The notes under the pieces: generated by a model
Told to the model about the DNA's origin: nothing
The model's input: the letters and a program-made list of their open reading frames with translations, nothing else
The model's database searches: none
Translations under genes and position numbers: made by a program
In this document: positions 1 through 9,324 of the stretch, one piece after another
Numbering within the stretch: position 1 is the first letter of the stretch
Layout of the letters: every line of letters starts with the position of its first letter
Source of the DNA: Synergistetes bacterium JGI 0000079-D21
GTDB lineage: Bacteria; Synergistota; Synergistia; Synergistales; 79-D21
Reading direction: 5' to 3'
Assembly (NCBI GenBank): GCA_000402835.1
Contig: AQRZ01000055.1
Span: 1 to 9,324, forward strand
Length of the DNA stretch: 9,324 nt

Positions 1-290
1 TTCGTGTCTATGATTCCCTGATGTTCTGCGGCTACCGCCATCTCAAGCATCTCAAGGTCGACCACGGCAACAAGGTCTATGCCAGCGGCAAGGTCTACAT
101 CAACGGGCTTGAAGGGTTCTGGAGCTTTTCCAAGGAACGTCTGATCAAGCATCATGGTGTTTCCAGGACCTGGTTTCCGTTTTATCTCAAGGAACTGGAA
201 TTCCGATACAACAATCGAAGGACGGATATCTTCCCTGTTCTCGGTCAGTATGTCTGTGACTTTGTACCCTTTGTGCCAAATAGGGACTAA
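1..290 (+). CDS. IS1595-family (ISXO2-like) transposase, C-terminal part
   Basis: C-terminal end of a DDE-type transposase that would catalyse excision and insertion of its own IS element. The frame is open from the window edge (codons from position 3, before the first Met at 21), so the N-terminal part lies outside the window. Counting from that Met, residues about 28-41 read NGLEGFWSFSKERL, the conserved block near the catalytic glutamate of ISXO2-like transposases. Residues about 56-66 (YLKELEFRYNN) followed by RRTD form the usual C-terminal motif. The stop codon is TAA at 288-290. Family assignment rests on these motifs and is fairly secure; whether the element is intact to the left cannot be seen. 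It converges on the helicase gene with less than 100 bp between them. Confidence 0.85.
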   Translation, partial: RVYDSLMFCGYRHLKHLKVDHGNKVYASGKVYINGLEGFWSFSKERLIKHHGVSRTWFPFYLKELEFRYNNRRTDIFPVLGQYVCDFVPFVPNRD

Positions 291-295
291 TCACC
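1..295 (+). mobile_element. 3' end of an IS1595-family insertion sequence
   Basis: Contains the transposase tail. The sequence just after and overlapping the stop codon, read inward from position 295, begins GGTGATTAGTCCCTATTTGG. Its position suits a terminal inverted repeat, so the element probably ends near 295. The matching left end and the 8-bp target duplication typical of the family would lie outside the window, so the boundary is inferred. Confidence 0.5.
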
Positions 296-313
296 AAGAA
301 GAATTCAGAGGGA

Positions 314-338
314 AAGCGTTTTCAAGACGAGAACGCTT
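314..338 (-). terminator. weak hairpin downstream of the helicase gene
   Basis: Imperfect inverted repeat AAGCGTTTTC / GAGAACGCTT around a 5-nt loop, in the convergent gap between the helicase stop and the IS1595 end. Read on the minus strand it has one C-A mismatch and is followed by TTTCCC rather than a long U run. It is at best a weak intrinsic terminator for the operon and could be chance. Confidence 0.25.
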
Positions 339-386
339 CTCGGGTGCTTGTGCCTTTCTAACCCTCGAGAAAAACGATCTTTTCGC

Positions 387-3300
387 TCAGTCTTCTCGAA
401 GCAAGCCGGCAAGATAGGACTTCGCGAGTCCCCTCTGGAGGAAACGGTGGGCGAACTGGTTCCGGTAACTCCGGAGGCAGCCGTAGCAGCTTATGGCGGG
501 GTCGCACCCGCACCTTCCGTCAACTCTAAGGAAGGCCCTCTCCAGTGTTTCCCTGAAGACCTCGGGTTTCTCCAGGCTGCTGACGATTCCCGCTCCGCCG
601 GGAACGGCATCGTAAAGGATGATTGGAGGAATTTTACGGCTTTCCGGCAATACCTCCCCGACGGTGGTGCTCAGGTCGGTTGAGGGGATTCCTATGGCCT
701 CGGCAGCCCCTTCCGAAAGGGCATACGCCAACGAGAATGCGAGAGAAAGCAAATCCACCCCTTCTTCTGCCTCGGGAACGAAGTGAACCTCCAGCACATC
801 CGTGATGAATTCGTGCCCCAGGGAATACCTGGCCAGGGACCCGGTACATTTCTTCCCCATGTAGGTTTCGTGCGACGGGATTTTTTCCTCTTTTTTCTTC
901 TTCGGCGGAACGATAGCCCCGAACCCGCATTTTTCGCAGATGAGGAACTCGCTTTCCCTCCTGCCTTCGCAAATAACGCTCATCAAACCGGGCTGGGCGG
1001 GGCGGAGGCGCAAAATCGGGGCGTTTTCGTCAAACAACAAGACATCGGGGCGTTTCGGATTGTCCGGCAGGGGACCCGCGAAGTAGGGCCGCATCGAAAA
1101 GAGCCTGGTCGGCTTGAATCGCGGTTCCTTCGCCTGTTCCTCGTGGGATACGACAAATCCGAAGGAAGGGATGATGTAGGTCCTTCTTTCTGCCCTGTCT
1201 CCGCACTCCAGTGCAGGTTCCGGCTGCCCCTCTTTCCACTGGACGTAGCAATTGTGCACTTTGCACCGCTTATAGTGCCGCCGTTCCCATTCCTTTCCCG
1301 CCACCCTCTTGAGGCTGTGCGACTTCCATTCCTTCTTGTTCGCGATGACGGAACTCGTCGGGGCAAACTCCCCGATTGCCAGGGAAAGGTCTCGCTGGAG
1401 CTGGATTTGCTGGCCTTCGAACGTCTTGGACCAACGGGTGTCCAGTTCCACAACGTCCACAGGAAATCCGTATTTGGGGATGACGGCCTGGCGGGAAAGG
1501 AACGAGAGGCAGTCGTCCCCAAGCAGGGTCCTCTCCATGCTTTTCGCCCAGTTCGCAGCCTTGAGCTCGTCCCTGGCTTTGGCTTCATCCTTGAAAGCCT
1601 GGATATCTGCGATATCCGACGCGAATGAGTGTTGGGCTTCCGCCATTCGGCTCTTTTCTCCGCAGATGACCTCGACCCAGGCATTCGTAGTCCCGACGCC
1701 CAGCTTTCCGGAGGTTTCCATAGGAAGGATGGCCTTCAGGCTTTCGCCGAGCCGACCGACATGCTTCCTTACATGCAAGCGAACCTCGTTCAGGACGGTC
1801 GGCCTTGTCGGATCAGGCCCGAACATCTCCTCCAGCTTGCCGAACCGCCCCCCGTGATACCTGAAAAAATCCGAAAGGATGACACCGGCCACATGCCGAA
1901 GAAGAATCTTGTCATTCACGATGCGAACGGCGGGTACCCGGATGGAGCCCCGAATGATTCCGAGAGGGTCGGCAAAATGGTACAGGTCGTGGGGTGAGCG
2001 GCGGCAGAACGTGATGGCGAGTCCAGGGAATCCTCGCCTCCTTCCTGCGCGTCCCACTCGTTGTGCGTAGTTGAAGGACTCCGGCGGGACGTTCCTCAGG
2101 AAAACGTTGTCCAGGTCACCCAGGTCCACCCCTAGCTCGAATGTCGTCGAGCAGCTCAATACATGGATCAGACCTCTCTTGAAGTCTTTCTGGTATTCCC
2201 TTGCCTTGTCATGGCTCAGCTGGGCCGTGTGTTCCTCGACTCGCATCTTTCCGGGGAGGGGTTCTTCGTAAAGCCTTCGGTAGTGATTCTCTCCCAGACT
2301 GAGGCTATCGATGGGTATGACCGTCCCAACACAGCCGGGCCTTTCACAGATCCCGAACAACGGGCGGTATTGCACCTGTCCGCAAAGTTCGCAGCGATAG
2401 ACGGTTCCGAAGCGCTCCCCGATGGCCCTGAACCAGCGGATATTGACTCGTGCTCCGCCCTCGATGGGGACGAAAATCCTTTCCGAATCCCGGGTCGCCA
2501 TTTTGTTGTCCCAGTCGGCGACCGCACCCCAGGCAAGGGCAAGGAACTCTCCCGCCAGCGCCTCGGAATGTTCAGGTTCGATCCCGCGGGCTTCCAGGAC
2601 GTTTTTAAGGACCTTCCGCCTCATTCCGGAGCCGCACCAGCTGACCGTAATTTTTGTCCCATTGGGTTTTCCGTAGACGAGATATTTCTGCCCGATGCCA
2701 AACCCGATGTTTTGCCAGGAGACGGCGTTTCCGGTCGCACCGGTAAACTCCACTGTACCCTGGCGCCTTGAGGTGTCCAGGAGGAACTCGATCAGCTCGA
2801 GTGCTTCCTCCCTCGAAAAGTTAAAGGGGGGGGCCAGCATTTCAGGGGGGATTTCGAACGTCTTGTGCAGGCCGATTTTCCAGTGAACGAGCCCGACTCC
2901 TTCAGGGGAAATACGCCGGCTTGTGGTAAAGAATTCCTCCAGGACCCAGGTCCAGCACTCCCTGAACATTTCCTGCTGAGTGGCCGTGAGAGTAAACAGC
3001 CCTTCCCTCCCGGCCAGGTCCACGAGACTGTACACGAGGTCCTCCGCTGAAACACCGTCGGGGTTTCTCAACCTGAGGGATTCCAGAGCCTCGGAGACCA
3101 AGTGCCCGCGGAGAAAGGACTTGTAGGAGTTTTCAAGGTACCAAGCGAAATAGGCAGCCTCCTGCCGGCCATCCGCGAAGGCCAGGATCTTCCTCCTTTC
3201 GGGAGGAAGGTTCGCGTGTAGGGCCGTGGAAACAACGGCGTGTGGAGCGTCGCTTCCCGAAATAACGTCCCGTATGGGAGCGTTGGGGGATTTTGCCCCG

Positions 3301-5129
3301 CACGCGCGGCAGACATAGAGCCGTTCCTTCACCTTCGACTCGTCATCGGAGCTCGTTTCACGCTTTACCCTCAACATCATCGAAAAATCGTGGCCGCATG
3401 CGGGAGGAGCCCACTCACCGTATGCTCCGCAGACAGGGCAAAGAAAGGATTCTCCTTCCTCTTCTTCCAGTCCGTTCCCGTTGTCGGTGGGGGCTTCCTC
3501 TTCGTCACCCGCTTCGGGTTCGTTCTTTTCCAGGGGCCGGAAGTAATCGACACCGAAATCGATGTCCCCCGGATCCCTGATGGCCTCCACCAGCCTGAAA
3601 AGGTTTCCCTGCTTCTCCAGGCGCCCGACGAAATAGTGCTGCCCGCATTCCTTGCAGACCGCAGTCTCGAAGACAGCGCCATCGCCCGAACCCGACAGTC
3701 GTTCGACAAAAACCCGCTTCTCGGGGACATAGGAGACAAAGGCTCCTTCCAGGGCCCTCAAAAAGAAATGGTATCGAGGCGAGCCGAAGGGTTCCCCGTT
3801 TTCCGGGTTCCGCGCCCAGGAAAGGCATTCAATGAGGGCAGTCAGCGCATCGTGGCGAAGGGCTTCAGGTGCCTCAGGGAAAATGAGTTCCGCAAGTGTT
3901 TCGACCGGCATGGGATTCCCGTTGACCGCATTCCTTAAACGGGTCGCGTGACTTTCATGGGCAAGCAGGTTCCCCATGACCAGTTCCTTCGATTCTCCAT
4001 CAGGAAAACCAAGGAAATCGGCTCCGGAGAAGATGGAATCCAGCTGGTGATTGAGAGCCTGGGGTTCGTCGAGGTTCGAGGCCAGTTCGCGCAAGGTTTC
4101 CGCGGGAAGCATGATACTCTCCTCTCCCGTGATGTCTTCCACATCGCCGGAAATGACGTCTTCCGCCTCGAAAGGCTCTGCGAAAATTGTCGAAGCGAAT
4201 TCCGCCACTGCGGGGAACCCCTTCTTCCCGTCCGAGAGCGTGGCGCTGGTTCCGACACACCGGAAGGGCCCCGTTCTTCCCCCCTCCTGGATGCGCCTCT
4301 TCAGGCGCCTGATGAGCATGGACATTTCGATTCCGATGGACCCCCGGTACTGGTGAACCTCGTCAAGAACGATGAAGGTCCAGTTCCGGGCAGACTCTCC
4401 CTGGAAAAGAGGGCTATCGTAGGGTCTGAGGAGAAGATATTCGAGCATGGAGAAGTTCGTCAGGAGAATGTTGGGTGGAGCGTTCCTCATTTCTTCACGG
4501 AAAACTAGTTCTCCCGGCTTCCTTTCACGCATCTTCTCCTCGGCGGCGCGATACCGGTCTCCCAGGTTCTCGGGCGTTTCCCCGATGTATTGGCCGAAGG
4601 TGAAACTGAAACGAGATCCTTCTTTTTTCAGGGCAGCTGCAATTTCCCCTAGTCGATCTCTTTGGTCGTTTGCAAGGGCGTTCATCGGGTAGAGAATCAT
4701 GGCCCGAACACCCGGCCCCAGAGTTCCATGTTCGTGTTCCTTGTAAAGATGGAGAAGGATGGGAAGCAGAAAGGCTTCGGTTTTGCCACTTCCCGTTCCC
4801 GTCGAGACGATGACGTTCCTTCCCCGCGTTACCTTTTCCAGCGCCCGATCCTGGTGGAGATAGAGGTTGCGGTTTCCCTTTAGGGCCCTGACAAAAGCCT
4901 CTTCCGCAGGGTGTCCGAGCAGAGAGGCAAATACTTCCCCCGGTAACCGCCCCTTCCTGAACGGGGGGGAGACCTCAAGGTAGGGCCCCTTCGCCAGGCT
5001 GCTTCCGGCCAAGGCTTCCTTGAATGTCCTGTTCAGGTCCGGGTCCTTGAACCGGTAGGAGGTCAAGAGGTATTCCCGGTAGCGCTCTTCCACGGTTTTA
5101 CAAAGCTTAAGCGGGCTTGTCCGATCCAT
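387..5129 (-). CDS. large DEVH-box SF2 helicase with C-terminal DUF1998/MZB zinc domain
   Basis: Predicted ATP-dependent nucleic-acid translocase or helicase of 1580 residues. Visible motifs: Walker A TGTGSGKT (110-117), motif Ia YPMNALANDQ, motif II DEVH (256-259), motif III GTSATL (293-298), motif IV region FADGRQEA (650-657), motif V STTFELGVD (994-1002) and motif VI QRVGRAGRRRG (1023-1033). CxxC pairs at 492/495, 564/567, 607/610, 913/916 and 1398/1401, plus Cx4C at 928/933, suggest inserted zinc ribbons. An acidic stretch lies at about 533-561. The C-terminus has PGGAG then CxCx5CxxC (1540-1551), the MrfA-type zinc-binding DUF1998 signature. I chose ATG at 5129, with GGAGG 9 nt upstream, over an in-frame TTG at 5162. 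All motor motifs look intact, so the gene is probably active. The architecture is closest to Druantia DruE, more distantly DISARM DrmA; MrfA is much shorter. The defence role is inferred from family and context. Confidence 0.93.
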   Translation of the reverse strand: MDRTSPLKLCKTVEERYREYLLTSYRFKDPDLNRTFKEALAGSSLAKGPYLEVSPPFRKGRLPGEVFASLLGHPAEEAFVRALKGNRNLYLHQDRALEKVTRGRNVIVSTGTGSGKTEAFLLPILLHLYKEHEHGTLGPGVRAMILYPMNALANDQRDRLGEIAAALKKEGSRFSFTFGQYIGETPENLGDRYRAAEEKMRERKPGELVFREEMRNAPPNILLTNFSMLEYLLLRPYDSPLFQGESARNWTFIVLDEVHQYRGSIGIEMSMLIRRLKRRIQEGGRTGPFRCVGTSATLSDGKKGFPAVAEFASTIFAEPFEAEDVISGDVEDITGEESIMLPAETLRELASNLDEPQALNHQLDSIFSGADFLGFPDGESKELVMGNLLAHESHATRLRNAVNGNPMPVETLAELIFPEAPEALRHDALTALIECLSWARNPENGEPFGSPRYHFFLRALEGAFVSYVPEKRVFVERLSGSGDGAVFETAVCKECGQHYFVGRLEKQGNLFRLVEAIRDPGDIDFGVDYFRPLEKNEPEAGDEEEAPTDNGNGLEEEEGESFLCPVCGAYGEWAPPACGHDFSMMLRVKRETSSDDESKVKERLYVCRACGAKSPNAPIRDVISGSDAPHAVVSTALHANLPPERRKILAFADGRQEAAYFAWYLENSYKSFLRGHLVSEALESLRLRNPDGVSAEDLVYSLVDLAGREGLFTLTATQQEMFRECWTWVLEEFFTTSRRISPEGVGLVHWKIGLHKTFEIPPEMLAPPFNFSREEALELIEFLLDTSRRQGTVEFTGATGNAVSWQNIGFGIGQKYLVYGKPNGTKITVSWCGSGMRRKVLKNVLEARGIEPEHSEALAGEFLALAWGAVADWDNKMATRDSERIFVPIEGGARVNIRWFRAIGERFGTVYRCELCGQVQYRPLFGICERPGCVGTVIPIDSLSLGENHYRRLYEEPLPGKMRVEEHTAQLSHDKAREYQKDFKRGLIHVLSCSTTFELGVDLGDLDNVFLRNVPPESFNYAQRVGRAGRRRGFPGLAITFCRRSPHDLYHFADPLGIIRGSIRVPAVRIVNDKILLRHVAGVILSDFFRYHGGRFGKLEEMFGPDPTRPTVLNEVRLHVRKHVGRLGESLKAILPMETSGKLGVGTTNAWVEVICGEKSRMAEAQHSFASDIADIQAFKDEAKARDELKAANWAKSMERTLLGDDCLSFLSRQAVIPKYGFPVDVVELDTRWSKTFEGQQIQLQRDLSLAIGEFAPTSSVIANKKEWKSHSLKRVAGKEWERRHYKRCKVHNCYVQWKEGQPEPALECGDRAERRTYIIPSFGFVVSHEEQAKEPRFKPTRLFSMRPYFAGPLPDNPKRPDVLLFDENAPILRLRPAQPGLMSVICEGRRESEFLICEKCGFGAIVPPKKKKEEKIPSHETYMGKKCTGSLARYSLGHEFITDVLEVHFVPEAEEGVDLLSLAFSLAYALSEGAAEAIGIPSTDLSTTVGEVLPESRKIPPIILYDAVPGGAGIVSSLEKPEVFRETLERAFLRVDGRCGCDPAISCYGCLRSYRNQFAHRFLQRGLAKSYLAGLLRED

Positions 5130-8100
5130 GTTCAGTCGCCTCCATAACACAAAGCCGGTCAAAATGCTCCTTCAACGCGTGTTCGAGCATCTCCTCTCTC
5201 TTAATGAAATCTGCGCCGCAGATCTCGCAGCGCCAGGTTTCGCATAGGGTGGAAAGAAGGTTATCCCGGATTTCCTCGATACTCGTGACGGGCCGAAATG
5301 AAGGTTGTTTCCCACGATGCTCTCTTTCGAAGTGGTTTAAAATACCGCTCGTAGGGTTCTCTAGGGCATCCTCGTAAGAAACCTTCAGGTAAAAAGGGCA
5401 TCCGGGAAAAAGACATTTGTAGATTTTCGCTGGCAGAGACCGATCTGCTTCTGCTATTTCGTCGTAAGTTAACTCGCGAAAGAACTTGTTACAAATATCG
5501 TCCTCGTGTTTTTCCTTGAGGTGCGTTTTCATTTCACCTTTAGTGAGTTTTTCCTCGCAGAAAGCACACTTTTTCCGGTTCAGGTAGTCAGCCAAATGGA
5601 TCTTTTTCGATTCGCCTCTATACTCAAATGAAAGGAATAAGGGGGTTCTGATTTCGGAGAATTTCGCCGGATTTAGAGCAATGACTGCGCCGAGTTCATC
5701 CATTCCTATACTCCAAAATCCTTCTCCCTTGTGCAGTCGATGCTGGTCGAACCCCTTTACGAAGAAACAAGCTTTGAGATTCGAAACAGTCTCGGGACAT
5801 CTGACAAACAGCTTCCATCCGCGACCGGGGCGGATCGTTTCCGGTCCTACATCAAGAACCTGCTTCCCGAGTATCAAATCTGACAAATCTCTCCCGATAC
5901 CCCACCAGAAGGACGGGAAATGTGTCTGAAAACGCATTTCATCAGGGTTCCCAGGCCGGATTTTCCAGTTCAAGGTTTCACATTCGGGAACAACGGAAAG
6001 AAGGATAGTCGTTTCCTCCATTTTGGATTCAATTTCAATAAAAGAATCCAAGTCTGTTTTTCCTAATACTGGCGCACACCCTAAAGAGTGCGATAGTTCG
6101 ATCCTAATCTCCCGGCTCGATTCTGAGACACCAATTGGGTCGTATCCCTCAACGTCTATTCCCTTGAAACCCTTGTGAAAAGCGAAGGGATGGCTTTCCA
6201 GAAGCTCATCGTGCCTGTCGTATAGGAGGACGGTAAAATGCCCCCCCTGGCTTTCCAACCCCTCAGGGATCGTGATTGGTCTTGATTTGCCCATGCCGGG
6301 GTAAAAATACTGCTTTTCGCGCCTTTCACCTTCAATATCACTTCGAATGACGATTTTCTCCACATTGTTCCAGCATGCATCCTGCACAGCAACGATGGCC
6401 GGGGGGTTCAGAAAGAAAACCGGCTCCCCGTTTGGACCTGACAGGTATGGCGATGTGCTTCCCTCAAAGTGGAACTCCTGCCAGGAACTCATGACCTTCA
6501 GGATGGAGCCATCCGGCCTGCGGAAAGCAATACCGTTTCGCGGGCTGGTTTGAAAGAAGTGCACCCTTGCCCCGTCAATCGAGCAAGGTTCCGGACTTTC
6601 GAAGGGGCGCCCGGATATCCGTTCTTCACGAGTGTAATCCCACGGGACGATACAGATATAGTCCCCAGCCGAATGCTCGCTCACCATTTTTGAAAGGGTA
6701 CCACCGCGCAAAATTTTAAAAAGAAGAAATCCCTCTTGCCCGAATTCTCTCTCGATCTTTTCCTGGAACCCCTGCCTGGTCCATTCGCACCTTAGAATTC
6801 CTTTCAAGCAGGTAATCGGCAACTCTCCAAACGTTTCCCCCCAGAAAACCTTTTCGTTGTTTTGAAACAAGGTCGGCGAATAACGCAGCACCCGCTTCGG
6901 TATCCTGCCAACGACCTCCCAAAGGGCTCCCCTTTTTAGGCAAAGGATATCTATGCACTCCCGTTTTCCGGCCGGACCAGCCTCCCGGGTATAACCCAGC
7001 CTCTGTCCTCCACGCCGGACGGGTTCGATACGGCGAGTTCCTTCCTCCAGCTCTCCCTCGGATTCGGGTTCAGGCTCTCCTTCATCAGCCACTTCCCGAG
7101 TTTTTTCTTCGTTCTCTGCGATTTCCACGGTTTCTTCAGCTTCCGCTTTTTGCGATACCAAAGCCCCTTCCCCTGTCCCCTCTCCTACCGATTTTGTTTC
7201 CGTTTCCGAAGCATCATCAGGAATTTGCTCCTCGTCCCGTTTTAACTCGAGTACGGAAACCGTCGGAAGCTTTGCTTCCTCGAAGGTAACAAGGGGAACC
7301 ACGGGGGGAGTTTTTCTCAGTGCGCCGATCAATGAGACAAGGGAGCGCAAACGCTGCCTCGTAGTAAGAACTTTCATCAGGACTTTTTCTAAATCCTTCC
7401 TCTCCGCATGGTTTTCCAAAAGAGAGGAAATCTTTTCGGAAAAGTCTTCGAAGGCGTTTTTCAGGGCTTCGACTCGATGATGGATGTTCGATTCATGAGC
7501 GGCAAGGTCATTTTTCATTTCTTCAACTCTCGGCAATAGAGCCACGTCGATGTACGTCCCAACGATACCGGGGATATCAGCCTCCATTTTTCCTATTGCG
7601 TGTATTGCCGCCTGGATTTCGGATTCGATTTCGGCCGTTTTCCTTTTCTGATCCAAACTCTCCTGGACAGATGAATCCACATGATCCCGAATCCTTTCCT
7701 CGAGCTCGGTAAAACGGAGTGAATTTCGGGACAAGGCCTCTGAAAGGTTGCTCCTGGATTCGGATATGATCTCGCGCATGTTTAGCTCCAGGGCTTCCTG
7801 CGAATCGCGATACTCCTTTACTTTTTCTTCGGTGGCCTGAAGTCTTGCTTCGAGCATCATTAGTTTGCTCATTGCCTGTGCAAAATCAACTGAAAGAGAC
7901 TTTATCGCATCCTTTCCGGCTTGGATTTTCCTTTCAATTCCGAAAATCTCTTCCTTCTGTTCCAACACGGATTTGTGAAGATTCTCAATGGCAACTCGAA
8001 TCGATTCCAGAGAGTTTCCATTAAGTCTGGATTCCTGCTTCATTTCACTTCTCAGGGCTTCAATTTTCTCACCGAATTGCAGTTTGCCCCTCCAAATTTC

Positions 8101-8469
8101 TGCTGAGATCTCCGCAAGAACATCTCGGAATTGCTGAAGGATGTCGCTAATCTTTTCCTGTTGTTCCAGAAGAGGGGACAACTGTTGTTCAAGTGCGGAT
8201 ATTCTTTCTTGTATCTCGTTCATCTGTTTCTGTTGGCAGGATCTGATAGATTCTATAATTTGTCGCTCTTCTTCTATGCGCCTGGTTTTTTCTTCATGGA
8301 TCTCTTTTCTTAAATCTTCAACAAGCTGGAAAAATTTATCAGAAACCTTCTGTATTCTCGAAGCGCTCTCGATCGCGTTCTTACCAGCCTGTTTTCGGAT
8401 GAAGAATATGGAAAGACCGGATAGAGTAACCAGGGTAAAACCAAAAAGGACAAAAACCGAATTCCACAA
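5107..8469 (-). CDS. membrane-anchored coiled-coil protein with three C-terminal C2H2 zinc fingers
   Basis: 1120 residues; family not recognised. Order of parts: one hydrophobic helix at about 4-24 followed by basic IRKQAGK, so a likely inner-membrane anchor with the bulk in the cytoplasm; charged heptad-rich coiled coil at about 30-385; acidic, Glu-rich linker at about 412-478; globular, partly beta-like region at about 500-960 with no motif I can name; then three zinc fingers, C968-C971-H983-H988, C1019-C1024-H1046-H1051 and C1081-C1084-H1097-H1102, each ending HX4H. No catalytic motif is visible. Start is TTG at 8469, preceded by AGAGGTGAT; an in-frame TGA at 8476-8478 rules out extension. 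It overlaps the helicase gene by 23 bp, so the two products probably act together. By position it could correspond to DruH of two-gene (type III) Druantia, but I cannot confirm homology. A role as membrane-tethered DNA or RNA sensor is inference. Confidence 0.92.
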   Translation of the reverse strand: MWNSVFVLFGFTLVTLSGLSIFFIRKQAGKNAIESASRIQKVSDKFFQLVEDLRKEIHEEKTRRIEEERQIIESIRSCQQKQMNEIQERISALEQQLSPLLEQQEKISDILQQFRDVLAEISAEIWRGKLQFGEKIEALRSEMKQESRLNGNSLESIRVAIENLHKSVLEQKEEIFGIERKIQAGKDAIKSLSVDFAQAMSKLMMLEARLQATEEKVKEYRDSQEALELNMREIISESRSNLSEALSRNSLRFTELEERIRDHVDSSVQESLDQKRKTAEIESEIQAAIHAIGKMEADIPGIVGTYIDVALLPRVEEMKNDLAAHESNIHHRVEALKNAFEDFSEKISSLLENHAERKDLEKVLMKVLTTRQRLRSLVSLIGALRKTPPVVPLVTFEEAKLPTVSVLELKRDEEQIPDDASETETKSVGEGTGEGALVSQKAEAEETVEIAENEEKTREVADEGEPEPESEGELEEGTRRIEPVRRGGQRLGYTREAGPAGKRECIDILCLKRGALWEVVGRIPKRVLRYSPTLFQNNEKVFWGETFGELPITCLKGILRCEWTRQGFQEKIEREFGQEGFLLFKILRGGTLSKMVSEHSAGDYICIVPWDYTREERISGRPFESPEPCSIDGARVHFFQTSPRNGIAFRRPDGSILKVMSSWQEFHFEGSTSPYLSGPNGEPVFFLNPPAIVAVQDACWNNVEKIVIRSDIEGERREKQYFYPGMGKSRPITIPEGLESQGGHFTVLLYDRHDELLESHPFAFHKGFKGIDVEGYDPIGVSESSREIRIELSHSLGCAPVLGKTDLDSFIEIESKMEETTILLSVVPECETLNWKIRPGNPDEMRFQTHFPSFWWGIGRDLSDLILGKQVLDVGPETIRPGRGWKLFVRCPETVSNLKACFFVKGFDQHRLHKGEGFWSIGMDELGAVIALNPAKFSEIRTPLFLSFEYRGESKKIHLADYLNRKKCAFCEEKLTKGEMKTHLKEKHEDDICNKFFRELTYDEIAEADRSLPAKIYKCLFPGCPFYLKVSYEDALENPTSGILNHFEREHRGKQPSFRPVTSIEEIRDNLLSTLCETWRCEICGADFIKREEMLEHALKEHFDRLCVMEATEHGSDKPA
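5139..5143 (-). promoter_or_regulatory. ribosome binding site of the helicase gene, inside the upstream gene
   Basis: GGAGG on the minus strand, 9 nt before the ATG at 5129. It decides the start against the in-frame TTG at 5162. It lies within the last codons of the upstream coding sequence, so ribosomes finishing that gene uncover or feed this site (translational coupling, inferred). Confidence 0.8.
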
Positions 8470-8474
8470 GCGGC

Positions 8475-8483
8475 ATCACCTCT
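8475..8483 (-). promoter_or_regulatory. ribosome binding site supporting a TTG start
   Basis: AGAGGTGAT on the minus strand, with its AGAGG core 9 nt before the TTG at 8469. An in-frame TGA overlaps this site, and the next upstream ATG and the overlapping GTG are out of frame. TTG is therefore the only start that keeps the complete membrane helix. Confidence 0.75.
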
Positions 8484-8510
8484 AAAACAACAAGTTAGGG
8501 GTGTTCTTCT

Positions 8511-8526
8511 AGCAATTCCCAACCCC
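8511..8526 (-). promoter_or_regulatory. possible sigma-54-like promoter of the operon
   Basis: On the minus strand GGGGTTGGGAATTGCT has a GG-N10-GC core and a TTGCT -12 box, about 40 nt before the TTG start. The -24 half matches the consensus only partly (GG and the later G). I saw no convincing sigma-70 pair nearby; TTGATC at 8532-8537 has no good -10 partner. This is a weak call. Confidence 0.2.
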
Positions 8527-8690
8527 AACAGGATCAAGGGGCTGTAAAATTCCGGCATCAAGAAGGCTTCTCCGGTCCTTAATCCCACAGATTGAACAAA
8601 CAACCTGCCTGATTGCTTCTTCACCCCTATTTCACATGCGTGTTTGTTGCTTCGTTGTAATGGGTATGCCTTCGGGCTTTCTTAATTCAA

Positions 8691-8716
8691 GTTCCGAAAA
8701 CCGCCTAAATCGGAAC
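8691..8716. repeat. 7-bp inverted repeat, 12-nt loop
   Basis: GTTCCGA at 8691-8697 and its exact reverse complement TCGGAAC at 8710-8716 could form a hairpin on either strand. A competing pairing AACCG/CGGTT overlaps it (about 8699-8722), so two alternative folds are possible. Confidence 0.5.
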
Positions 8717-8755
8717 CCGGTTAGAGATTCCCTACCGCGGTCTCCTGTTAAGCCA

Positions 8756-8801
8756 GGTTGACCGGCTATTTATCCGAGAGATGGAGTCGCTCAGGTCAAC
8801 C
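8756..8801. repeat. 8-bp perfect inverted repeat, 30-nt spacer
   Basis: GGTTGACC at 8756-8763 and GGTCAACC at 8794-8801 are exact reverse complements. They could be the base of a stem-loop in a transcript or a two-half-site protein binding site. Function unknown. Confidence 0.5.
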
Positions 8802-8987
8802 CCTAGGAGGGACTTGCCCCTTTTGCTACTCCTTTGGTTTGTCTTTTCTCCCTGAGCGCGCTGTTCCCGGCGAGCCTTCTCTCCCTACTTGTTCCCGCCT
8901 GATTCGGCATCCTTTTTTGAGCACTAAAGGAGCCTGGCTTTCCCAAAAGACCTTAATTGGATTTTAGTCAATTCCAGAAGTTCGAAC

Positions 8988-9010
8988 AATCAGGTTTTCC
9001 CTGATTTTTT
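8988..9010 (+). terminator. rho-independent terminator-like hairpin
   Basis: AATCAGG (8988-8994), a 5-nt loop TTTTC, then CCTGATT (9000-9006) running into six T residues (9005-9010). This is a compact 7-bp stem plus U tract on the plus strand. No recognised plus-strand gene precedes it, so it may end an unannotated RNA or a decayed gene in 8640-8985. It may also insulate the region from the IS3 remnant. Confidence 0.5.
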
Positions 9011-9084
9011 CATGCAGTGGTCGGAATTCCCCTTTCGGTTTCCGTTTCTGGCTCGTGGGGGATTCTTTCAACCACATGAACGAA

Positions 9085-9324
9085 TGTAGTGCTCCCCAGA
9101 AATCAAGTCACTAATGTCGCTTGTTTTAGCCGAACCTGCTTCGGGGAAAGGTACCCCAGAGATTGATGGGGCCTCCCCTCGTTGTACCAGTGAATCCAGC
9201 CAGCGATTTCCCGCCTGGCTTCGTCGAAGGACCGAAAATTCCTCAACCAGACGCATTCTTCCTTCAGGCTCCTGAAAAATCTTTCGATCATGCCGTTCTG
9301 TTCCGGCGTATAGGGCGTCACGAA
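9085..9324 (-). mobile_element. right end of an IS3-family insertion sequence
   Basis: Holds the transposase tail below. Position 9085 starts TGTAGTGCTCCCCAGAAA, beginning with the TG that marks IS3-family termini and lying just outside the transposase stop codon, as expected for the terminal inverted repeat. The other end lies beyond the window. The exact boundary is inferred. Confidence 0.55.
9103..9324 (-). CDS. IS3-family transposase OrfB, C-terminal part
   Basis: C-terminal portion of an rve-type DDE integrase-core transposase for IS3-family transposition. The frame is open to the window edge, so the N-terminal part is outside. The sequence TPYTPEQNGMIERFFRSLKE contains the region of the catalytic Glu. 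A little later WIHWYNEGRPHQSLGYLSP is the typical C-terminal IS3 motif. Stop codon TGA at 9105-9103. The apparent first residue at 9321 is a GTG inside the gene, not a real start. Confidence 0.88.
   Translation of the reverse strand, partial: FVTPYTPEQNGMIERFFRSLKEECVWLRNFRSFDEARREIAGWIHWYNEGRPHQSLGYLSPKQVRLKQATLVT

Follow-up and report, generated by a model that had tools for sequence, protein, structure and literature searches.

A two-gene locus with a DruE-like helicase and a predicted membrane-anchored, Ig-like partner whose C-terminal module is exchangeable

Background

The gene pair discussed here encodes a DruE-like helicase and a large partner protein, and lies in a 9,324-nucleotide stretch of DNA from Synergistetes bacterium JGI 0000079-D21 (contig AQRZ01000055.1, positions 1 to 9,324), the whole of which we call the window. 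The closest described systems are the type III Druantia operons with the genes druH and druE. There DruH has been called the likely sensor, with three reported immunoglobulin (Ig)-like domains, and DruE a helicase-nuclease effector; DruH diverges faster than DruE, and the Escherichia coli DruH dimer showed nuclease activity (PMC13192584). For Mycobacterium smegmatis DruH is given as 1132 amino acids (aa) and DruE as 1667 aa, with a 17 bp gene overlap; the two have to interact, the system stops phage DNA from being replicated, and neither protein has a canonical nuclease domain according to the authors (PMC13316683). Type III DruE has also been described as carrying PLD domains, and Bell et al. 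2025 distinguish from the other types a Druantia Type III-like or III-B branch with a YprA-family helicase, mostly without a nuclease; repair helicases are known in the YprA family, and the name DruH does not occur in the main text of that paper (PMC12458937).

We think it probable that the window pair is a two-gene antiviral module resembling type III Druantia. A DruE-type translocase would be controlled by an Ig-like sensor that is tethered to the membrane and carries a replaceable reader of nucleic acid. A preliminary description, made from the letters of the window, had left the choice between a divergent type III Druantia and a separate two-gene system in which the partner acts as a tether. 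The second of these accounts best for the data, although the partner is remotely linked to the partners of a sister helicase group.

Association of the two genes

The partner gene (5107..8469, an open reading frame (ORF) of 1120 aa with a TTG start) and the helicase gene (387..5129, 1580 aa counted from the ATG at 5129; the longest possible frame begins upstream, at TTG 5162) are both on the minus strand and overlap by 23 bp (5107-5129), so the single operon of two large genes noted in the preliminary description stands. Shine-Dalgarno sequences were read by eye for both genes on that strand, AGAGGTG (8477..8483, Shine-Dalgarno-like) 7 nt 5' of the partner start and GGAGG (5139..5143) 9 nt 5' of the helicase ATG, within the partner gene.

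Homologues of the two genes do occur together, a point on which the preliminary description had laid weight. A scan of species genomes with the helicase profile gave 80 loci, of which 76 were examined (all except L039, L066, L076 and L079), and 71 of these are testable, in that an ORF longer than 150 aa lies upstream of the helicase, close to it and in the same direction. Partners were detected with a core-only profile grown outward from the window, which replaced an iterative profile that had absorbed the coiled coil and which has no match among 16 reference proteins, including four DruH. By this profile the upstream gene is a partner homologue in 64 of the 71 loci (54/58 and 10/13). At 59 of the 64, partner and helicase are separated by -23 to +59 bp, and there are 8 overlaps. 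In a sample of 299 genomes of one phylum (2 previously seen), searched at thresholds of 1e-100 for the helicase and 1e-8 for the partner, the partner is present in six and adjoins the helicase in all six. At G183:C16:4555-9070 the helicase beside the partner is split across two adjacent frames (976 + 641 aa), possibly two genes or a frameshift.

The two proteins have co-evolved. Pairwise distances of partner core and helicase are correlated over 53 pairs (Mantel r 0.93, none of 2000 permutations as high), and the partner diverges faster, with a mean identity of 28% vs 51% for the helicase. Among the 64 partner loci 17 phyla are named, one of them archaeal, and 7 loci have no phylum placement. 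Closely related helicases come from different phyla and even domains, as in a clade with support 99 that holds L001 (Chloroflexota, Dehalococcoidia), L010 (WOR-3) and L014 (Methanophagales). Nearly all loci are from metagenome-assembled genomes, so individual taxon labels may be wrong.

Searches with the partner sequence found only four proteins including the window's own, and a profile search gave the same four, so that the wider partner family was reached only by reading upstream of the helicase. A genome scan with the partner alone gave no match, nor did scans of viruses and plasmids, and among 10 viral helicase loci, 9 of them with an upstream ORF near the helicase, the partner core is present in 0/9.

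Some observations weigh against the pair being a constant module. The gap exceeds 60 bp in 5 of the 64 loci, and 7 of the 71 have a different upstream ORF (L050, L062, L064, L065, L068, L070 and L073). All of these except L050 are one outside branch of the helicase tree; L050, with an upstream ORF of 237 aa, sits within the family. The 299-genome sample includes 28 helicase-positive genomes, and 22 of the 28 have no partner at 1e-8; helicase scores are at most 1215 bits in the partner-less genomes vs at least 2141 bits in the four unsplit partner-bearing ones. A search of 198 genomes from the phylum to which L064 belongs gave no partner, but had no positive control. Lastly, the partner-bearing helicases are not strictly one clade in a 39-row tree, where L031, for which the upstream region is missing, is basal; their monophyly is not rejected (p 0.374).

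The helicase

By its motifs and model matches the window helicase is a DruE-like helicase of the YprA family in superfamily 2 (SF2). The SF2 motifs are intact, with TGTGSGKT at residue 110, DEVH at 256, SAT at 295 and QRVGRAGR at 1023, and CxCx5CxxC is at 1540. Pfam matches, all above the curated cut-off, place the DEAD/DEAH (RecA1) domain with Walker A and DEVH at residues 92-299 (4233..4856, minus strand; PF00270, 5e-21), Helicase_C with QRVGRAGR at 961-1031 (2037..2249, minus; PF00271, 5.8e-10) and the MZB/DUF1998 zinc domain at 1467-1552 (474..731, minus; PF09369, 6.2e-9), and the protein ends 28 residues past MZB. The preliminary description was right in calling it a complete DEVH helicase with a C-terminal CxCx5CxxC DUF1998/MZB domain. 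The comparison with PADLOC models that it had proposed gives DruE1 as the best model (2.2e-158, 528 bits) and DruE3 as the next (486 bits), with 71 bits for the best DrmA model and LmuB alone for the partner. At E 1 the Pfam families on the helicase are DEAD, Helicase_C, MZB and ResIII, with no nuclease domain and none of the C-terminal PLD nuclease that is a trait of III-A DruE. The helicase belongs to a large family, with 6116 of 7993 scored proteins at E 0.001, full-length relatives included.

In the 39-row tree, made by a quick method with long-branch rooting and no certain type II reference, the family helicases and L031 form a set with support 100, and a larger set, also with support 100, adds relatives with other partners and is apart from DruE I and III-A. 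The window helicase is one of 25 rows in a set with support 100 that excludes DruE I and III-A, and it may belong to the Type III-like branch of PMC12458937.

The partner

The partner is 57-73% identical to three metagenomic relatives. It begins with a transmembrane helix, on prediction only, at residues 6-24 (8398..8454; Kyte-Doolittle 2.25; this and the following features are on the minus strand), followed by a long coiled-coil region with approximate borders at residues 30 and 380 (7330..8382). The coiled coil is visible only through matches to coiled-coil proteins, namely NCBIfam SMC over 54-293 (4.5e-6, far under the cut-off) and PADLOC LmuB over 49-376 (2.1e-8). An RRGGQR basic motif at residues 485-490 (7000..7017), of an RGG type present in many of 40 aligned members, marks the beginning of the conserved core, and from about 503 to 964 (5578..6963) the structure model has four or five tandem beta-sandwiches predicted to be Ig-like, an arrangement resembling Ig arrays. 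This core, which came from the structure prediction and fold search advised in the preliminary description, was not part of that description.

Three zinc fingers follow: a C2H2 finger at residues 968-988 (5506..5568; C968/C971/H983/H988), a C2H2-like finger with a long loop at 1019-1051 (5317..5415; C1019/C1024/H1046/H1051) and a further C2H2 finger at 1081-1102 (5164..5229; C1081/C1084/H1097/H1102), the last with a Pfam zf-C2H2_4 match at 1079-1102. The Pfam C2H2 matches on the partner are all under the Pfam cut-offs; the structure model puts one helix within each finger, and all 12 ligands are identical among the window and its three relatives in a four-sequence alignment. The membrane anchor, long coiled coil and three zinc fingers reported earlier are thus all recovered, the anchor as a prediction.

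The N-termini of the family vary. A hydropathy of 1.8 is reached in the first 120 residues by 28 of 68 partners, a count affected by contig ends that cut the partners at seven loci, and 14 other partners have a cationic amphipathic N-terminal helix (moment 0.45-0.96; picked by eye, without a control). Given this variation, membrane association of the partner family is probable, as a prediction from sequence.

The exchangeable C-terminal module

Over 68 partners (the loci, the window and the three metagenomic relatives, with the identical L008 and L017 counted separately) the tails are C2H2 fingers in 23, eL13-like in 20, uS9-like in 8 and other in 17; the tail profiles were made from members picked by eye, and the type other is a mixture. 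The tail types are clustered on the helicase tree yet have been repeatedly swapped, since the three named types require at least 7 changes over 43 rows, vs a shuffled mean of 18.3; with the type other included the count is 13. The three-member clade of L001, L010 and L014 has three tails, C2H2, eL13 and uS9 respectively. Further reader types probably exist beyond the named three. In the other tails of L015, L016, L054, L058, L061 and L063 we noted by eye cysteine pairs resembling zinc-binding clusters.

With regard to the ribosomal types, Pfam on ten partners gives Ribosomal_S9 in three, above cut-off (E 6.2e-11 to 4.7e-17), and Ribosomal_L13e in four, one just above cut-off and three below. 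Whole-genome searches for L13e match in four of six genomes (two above cut-off), always in a long open frame in the partner region; the two negative genomes carry other tails (L053 the type other, L014 uS9), and 0/14 control genomes match. The eL13-like tail was modelled separately from 19 sequences (predicted local distance difference test, pLDDT, 84.2), and all 50 PDB entries listed as matches of the model belong to ribosomes or their precursors (E 1.0e-3 to 6.2e-3, probability 1.00; best fit with a template modelling score, TM, up to 0.67, root-mean-square deviation 2.0 and 30% identity). One match description names eL13, and the remaining ribosomal chains we take to be eL13 also. eL13 is otherwise known from archaeal and eukaryotic ribosomes. 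The uS9-like tail spans only positions 1-94 or 1-96 of the 121 in the family model, the last fifth being missing, and a complete separate uS9 gene is present in 4/4 genomes with such a tail. The tails would represent an unusual non-ribosomal use of the eL13 and uS9 folds in bacteria, and searches of an open-licence library listed no paper that, judged from its title and the opening of its abstract, concerns such a fusion in a Druantia, defence or phage setting.

The tail may be read as a recognition head, because it is a small module that changes while the core stays constant, and because its identified types are nucleic-acid-binding or ribosomal. The natural swaps are a ready source of comparisons for finding out what is recognised by Druantia-like sensors.

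Possible mechanism and alternatives

We suggest that the partner would be anchored at the inner membrane, in the window by its transmembrane helix and in other members probably by the cationic amphipathic helix, with the coiled coil as a spacer between membrane and core. Its tandem Ig-like domains and its exchangeable reader of nucleic acid or ribonucleoprotein (RNP), here the three C2H2 fingers, would let it sense infection. Once bound to foreign nucleic acid or to a phage complex, the partner would recruit or release the DruE-like ATP-driven translocase, which would unwind or strip phage DNA, so that replication is blocked. The division into a sensing partner and an acting helicase is by analogy, since published type III gives DruH and DruE those roles; we infer in addition the contact between the two proteins, the way in which binding activates the motor, the kind of nucleic acid that is read (DNA or RNA), DNA as the target and the antiviral role. 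Degradation, if any, would fall to host nucleases or come from an activity not recognised here, because neither protein has a recognised nuclease domain, and such an activity may lie in the window partner given that reported for the E. coli DruH dimer (PMC13192584).

A wider proposal, which we offer tentatively and consider unlikely, is that of a plug-in-reader immune system, in which a family of tethered Ig-like sensors uses ribosomal folds (eL13, uS9) or zinc fingers as interchangeable heads, keeps watch at the membrane over phage RNA, ribosomes or coupled transcription-translation, and passes the target to a DruE-type motor that has no recognised nuclease.

It is also rather doubtful that the locus is a true type III Druantia, its partner a DruH orthologue diverged beyond recognition and working as published for DruH and DruE. 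Gene number, gene order and similar sizes agree with the M. smegmatis pair, in which the authors likewise find no canonical nuclease domain (PMC13316683), DruH is reported to have Ig-like domains, and the partner core is remotely linked to the partners of one sister helicase group. However no DruH model matches the window partner at E 0.1, its sole PADLOC match being LmuB, in the coiled coil, and none matches nine further upstream proteins at E 1 (eight with the core, and that of L064 from a sister group), whereas two real DruH proteins match 11 and 8 DruH models. Profile comparison (hhalign) of the core with four DruH, which make a weak profile, gives a probability of 0.1%, and sister-group partners reach 0.3-1.9% with the same profile; III-A DruE is on another helicase branch. 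On the model and profile results we rejected a DruH match for the partner, and the full-length DruH match that the preliminary description had said would make the pair a known one was not found by PADLOC or by profile comparison.

The sister-group helicases are themselves DruE-like and are preceded by other large partners of 1238-1643 aa (L131 623-5554, L132 3-3884, L133 6065-10921, L134 3-4796 and L118 6440-10156), which, where scanned, match no DruH model; that of L132 also matches PADLOC C3a139 (HKD+Snf2). In an Olsenella/Collinsella-type group (L062, L064, L065, L068) the DruE-like helicase is accompanied by another set of related partners, 1005-1051 aa long, and PADLOC gives no match for the upstream proteins of L064 and L068. 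Profile comparison links the L131-L134 partners remotely to the core (94%, 8.9e-8) and also to the other two sister groups (76% and 93%); the L118 and Olsenella/Collinsella groups compared directly with the core give 0.5% and 0.3%. As controls for the core profile, six other proteins give 0.1-2.0% and six shuffles 0.1%. A joint alignment of sister partners, headed by the L118 protein, reaches 92.5% against the core, and a split test traced the signal to L131-L134. The view that the sister-group partners are unrelated to the core was dropped in the light of the L131-L134 link.

We consider it improbable that the system is directed at RNA or the ribosome, with the tails as RNA or RNP readers and the helicase working at the membrane on RNA, R-loops or coupled transcription-translation. 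Such a role would suit the 28 of 68 partners that end in eL13-like or uS9-like domains, both parts of the ribosome, and the uniformly ribosomal structural matches listed for the eL13-like tail, but the helicase relatives with reported activity (DruE, SftH) act on DNA, C2H2 tails are equally common, and the uS9-like tails stop short of the final fifth of the family model.

A DNA repair or chromosome-maintenance pair of an MrfA/YprA-like helicase and an SMC-like membrane partner, with no immune role, is very improbable: repair helicases of the YprA family are known (PMC12458937) and the partner has an SMC-like coiled coil, but occurrence is patchy (6/299 genomes), relatives mix phyla, neighbours vary, the partner evolves fast and exchanges its reader, and DruE models are the best helicase match.

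Genomic setting

The 3' part of an IS1595-family transposase gene (3-290, plus strand) and that of an IS3-family transposase gene (9103-9324, minus strand) face the module, one from each side, and the module is thus located between two insertion sequences. Apart from the gene pair and these transposase ends the ORF list of the window has no third long non-overlapping gene.

The scan of neighbouring genes covered 121 of 263 ORFs at 18 of 47 loci, ORFs of at least 1150 aa being left out. Among the matches listed (25 of 233 families) are PADLOC HmaB/HmaC, type I and IIG restriction-modification, Cas10d and Csm3, and Pfam finds GmrSD on neighbour ORFs; these defence-gene matches are a plain listing, and metabolic genes are common around the pair. 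Each listed Pfam family is present on at most 3 of the 121 ORFs, so there is no fixed gene context, and the conserved housekeeping context that the preliminary description named as evidence against defence was not seen. A housekeeping operon was rejected on the variable neighbours.

Comparison with known systems

The locus shares with DISARM (DrmA and DrmB) a DUF1998 module associated with an SF2 helicase, but in the window this is a single fused helicase-MZB protein and not separate DrmA and DrmB with a methylase. DISARM was rejected on this fusion, the 71 bits for DrmA and the lack of a third long gene. Druantia types II and IV and the CoCoNuTs also have a DruE-type helicase, and the type II operon has a coiled-coil protein as well, but types II and IV are defined by DruM/DruF/DruG or DruF/DruL (PMC8565338) and CoCoNuTs by McrBC homologues. 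The window helicase has a lone operon partner, with only an LmuB match at E 0.1, and not the gene sets of Druantia I (DruA-D), II or IV. Ig-like domains or DUF1998 occur in other defence proteins in PMC11090510 and PMC12839542, with no such partner in the parts of those papers used here.

The window has the DruE homologue, an SF2 helicase with DUF1998, that is common to all Druantia types. In the passages used here, the account of the Type III-like branch names no partner with a membrane anchor, Ig-like core or ribosomal or C2H2 tails (PMC12458937). PADLOC would probably register only an orphan DruE at such loci, and a widespread two-gene module may go unnoticed because the PADLOC DruH models fail to match the partner.

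The greatest likeness is to type III, in the two-gene operon with a large partner followed by a DUF1998 helicase in the same order, in the homology of the helicase to DruE, in the Ig-like domains reported for DruH and in the faster evolution of the partner. The helicase differs from III-A in its length, 1580 aa compared with 2104 aa for E. coli DruE, and in its separate branch. The window partner differs in being not recognisably DruH (YjiT family) and in having a predicted membrane anchor, a coiled coil and an exchangeable reader. The Ig-like core, itself a prediction, and the exchange of the C-terminal module are the most unusual features of the locus, and what is new relative to published type III is the predicted membrane tether together with the replaceable tail.

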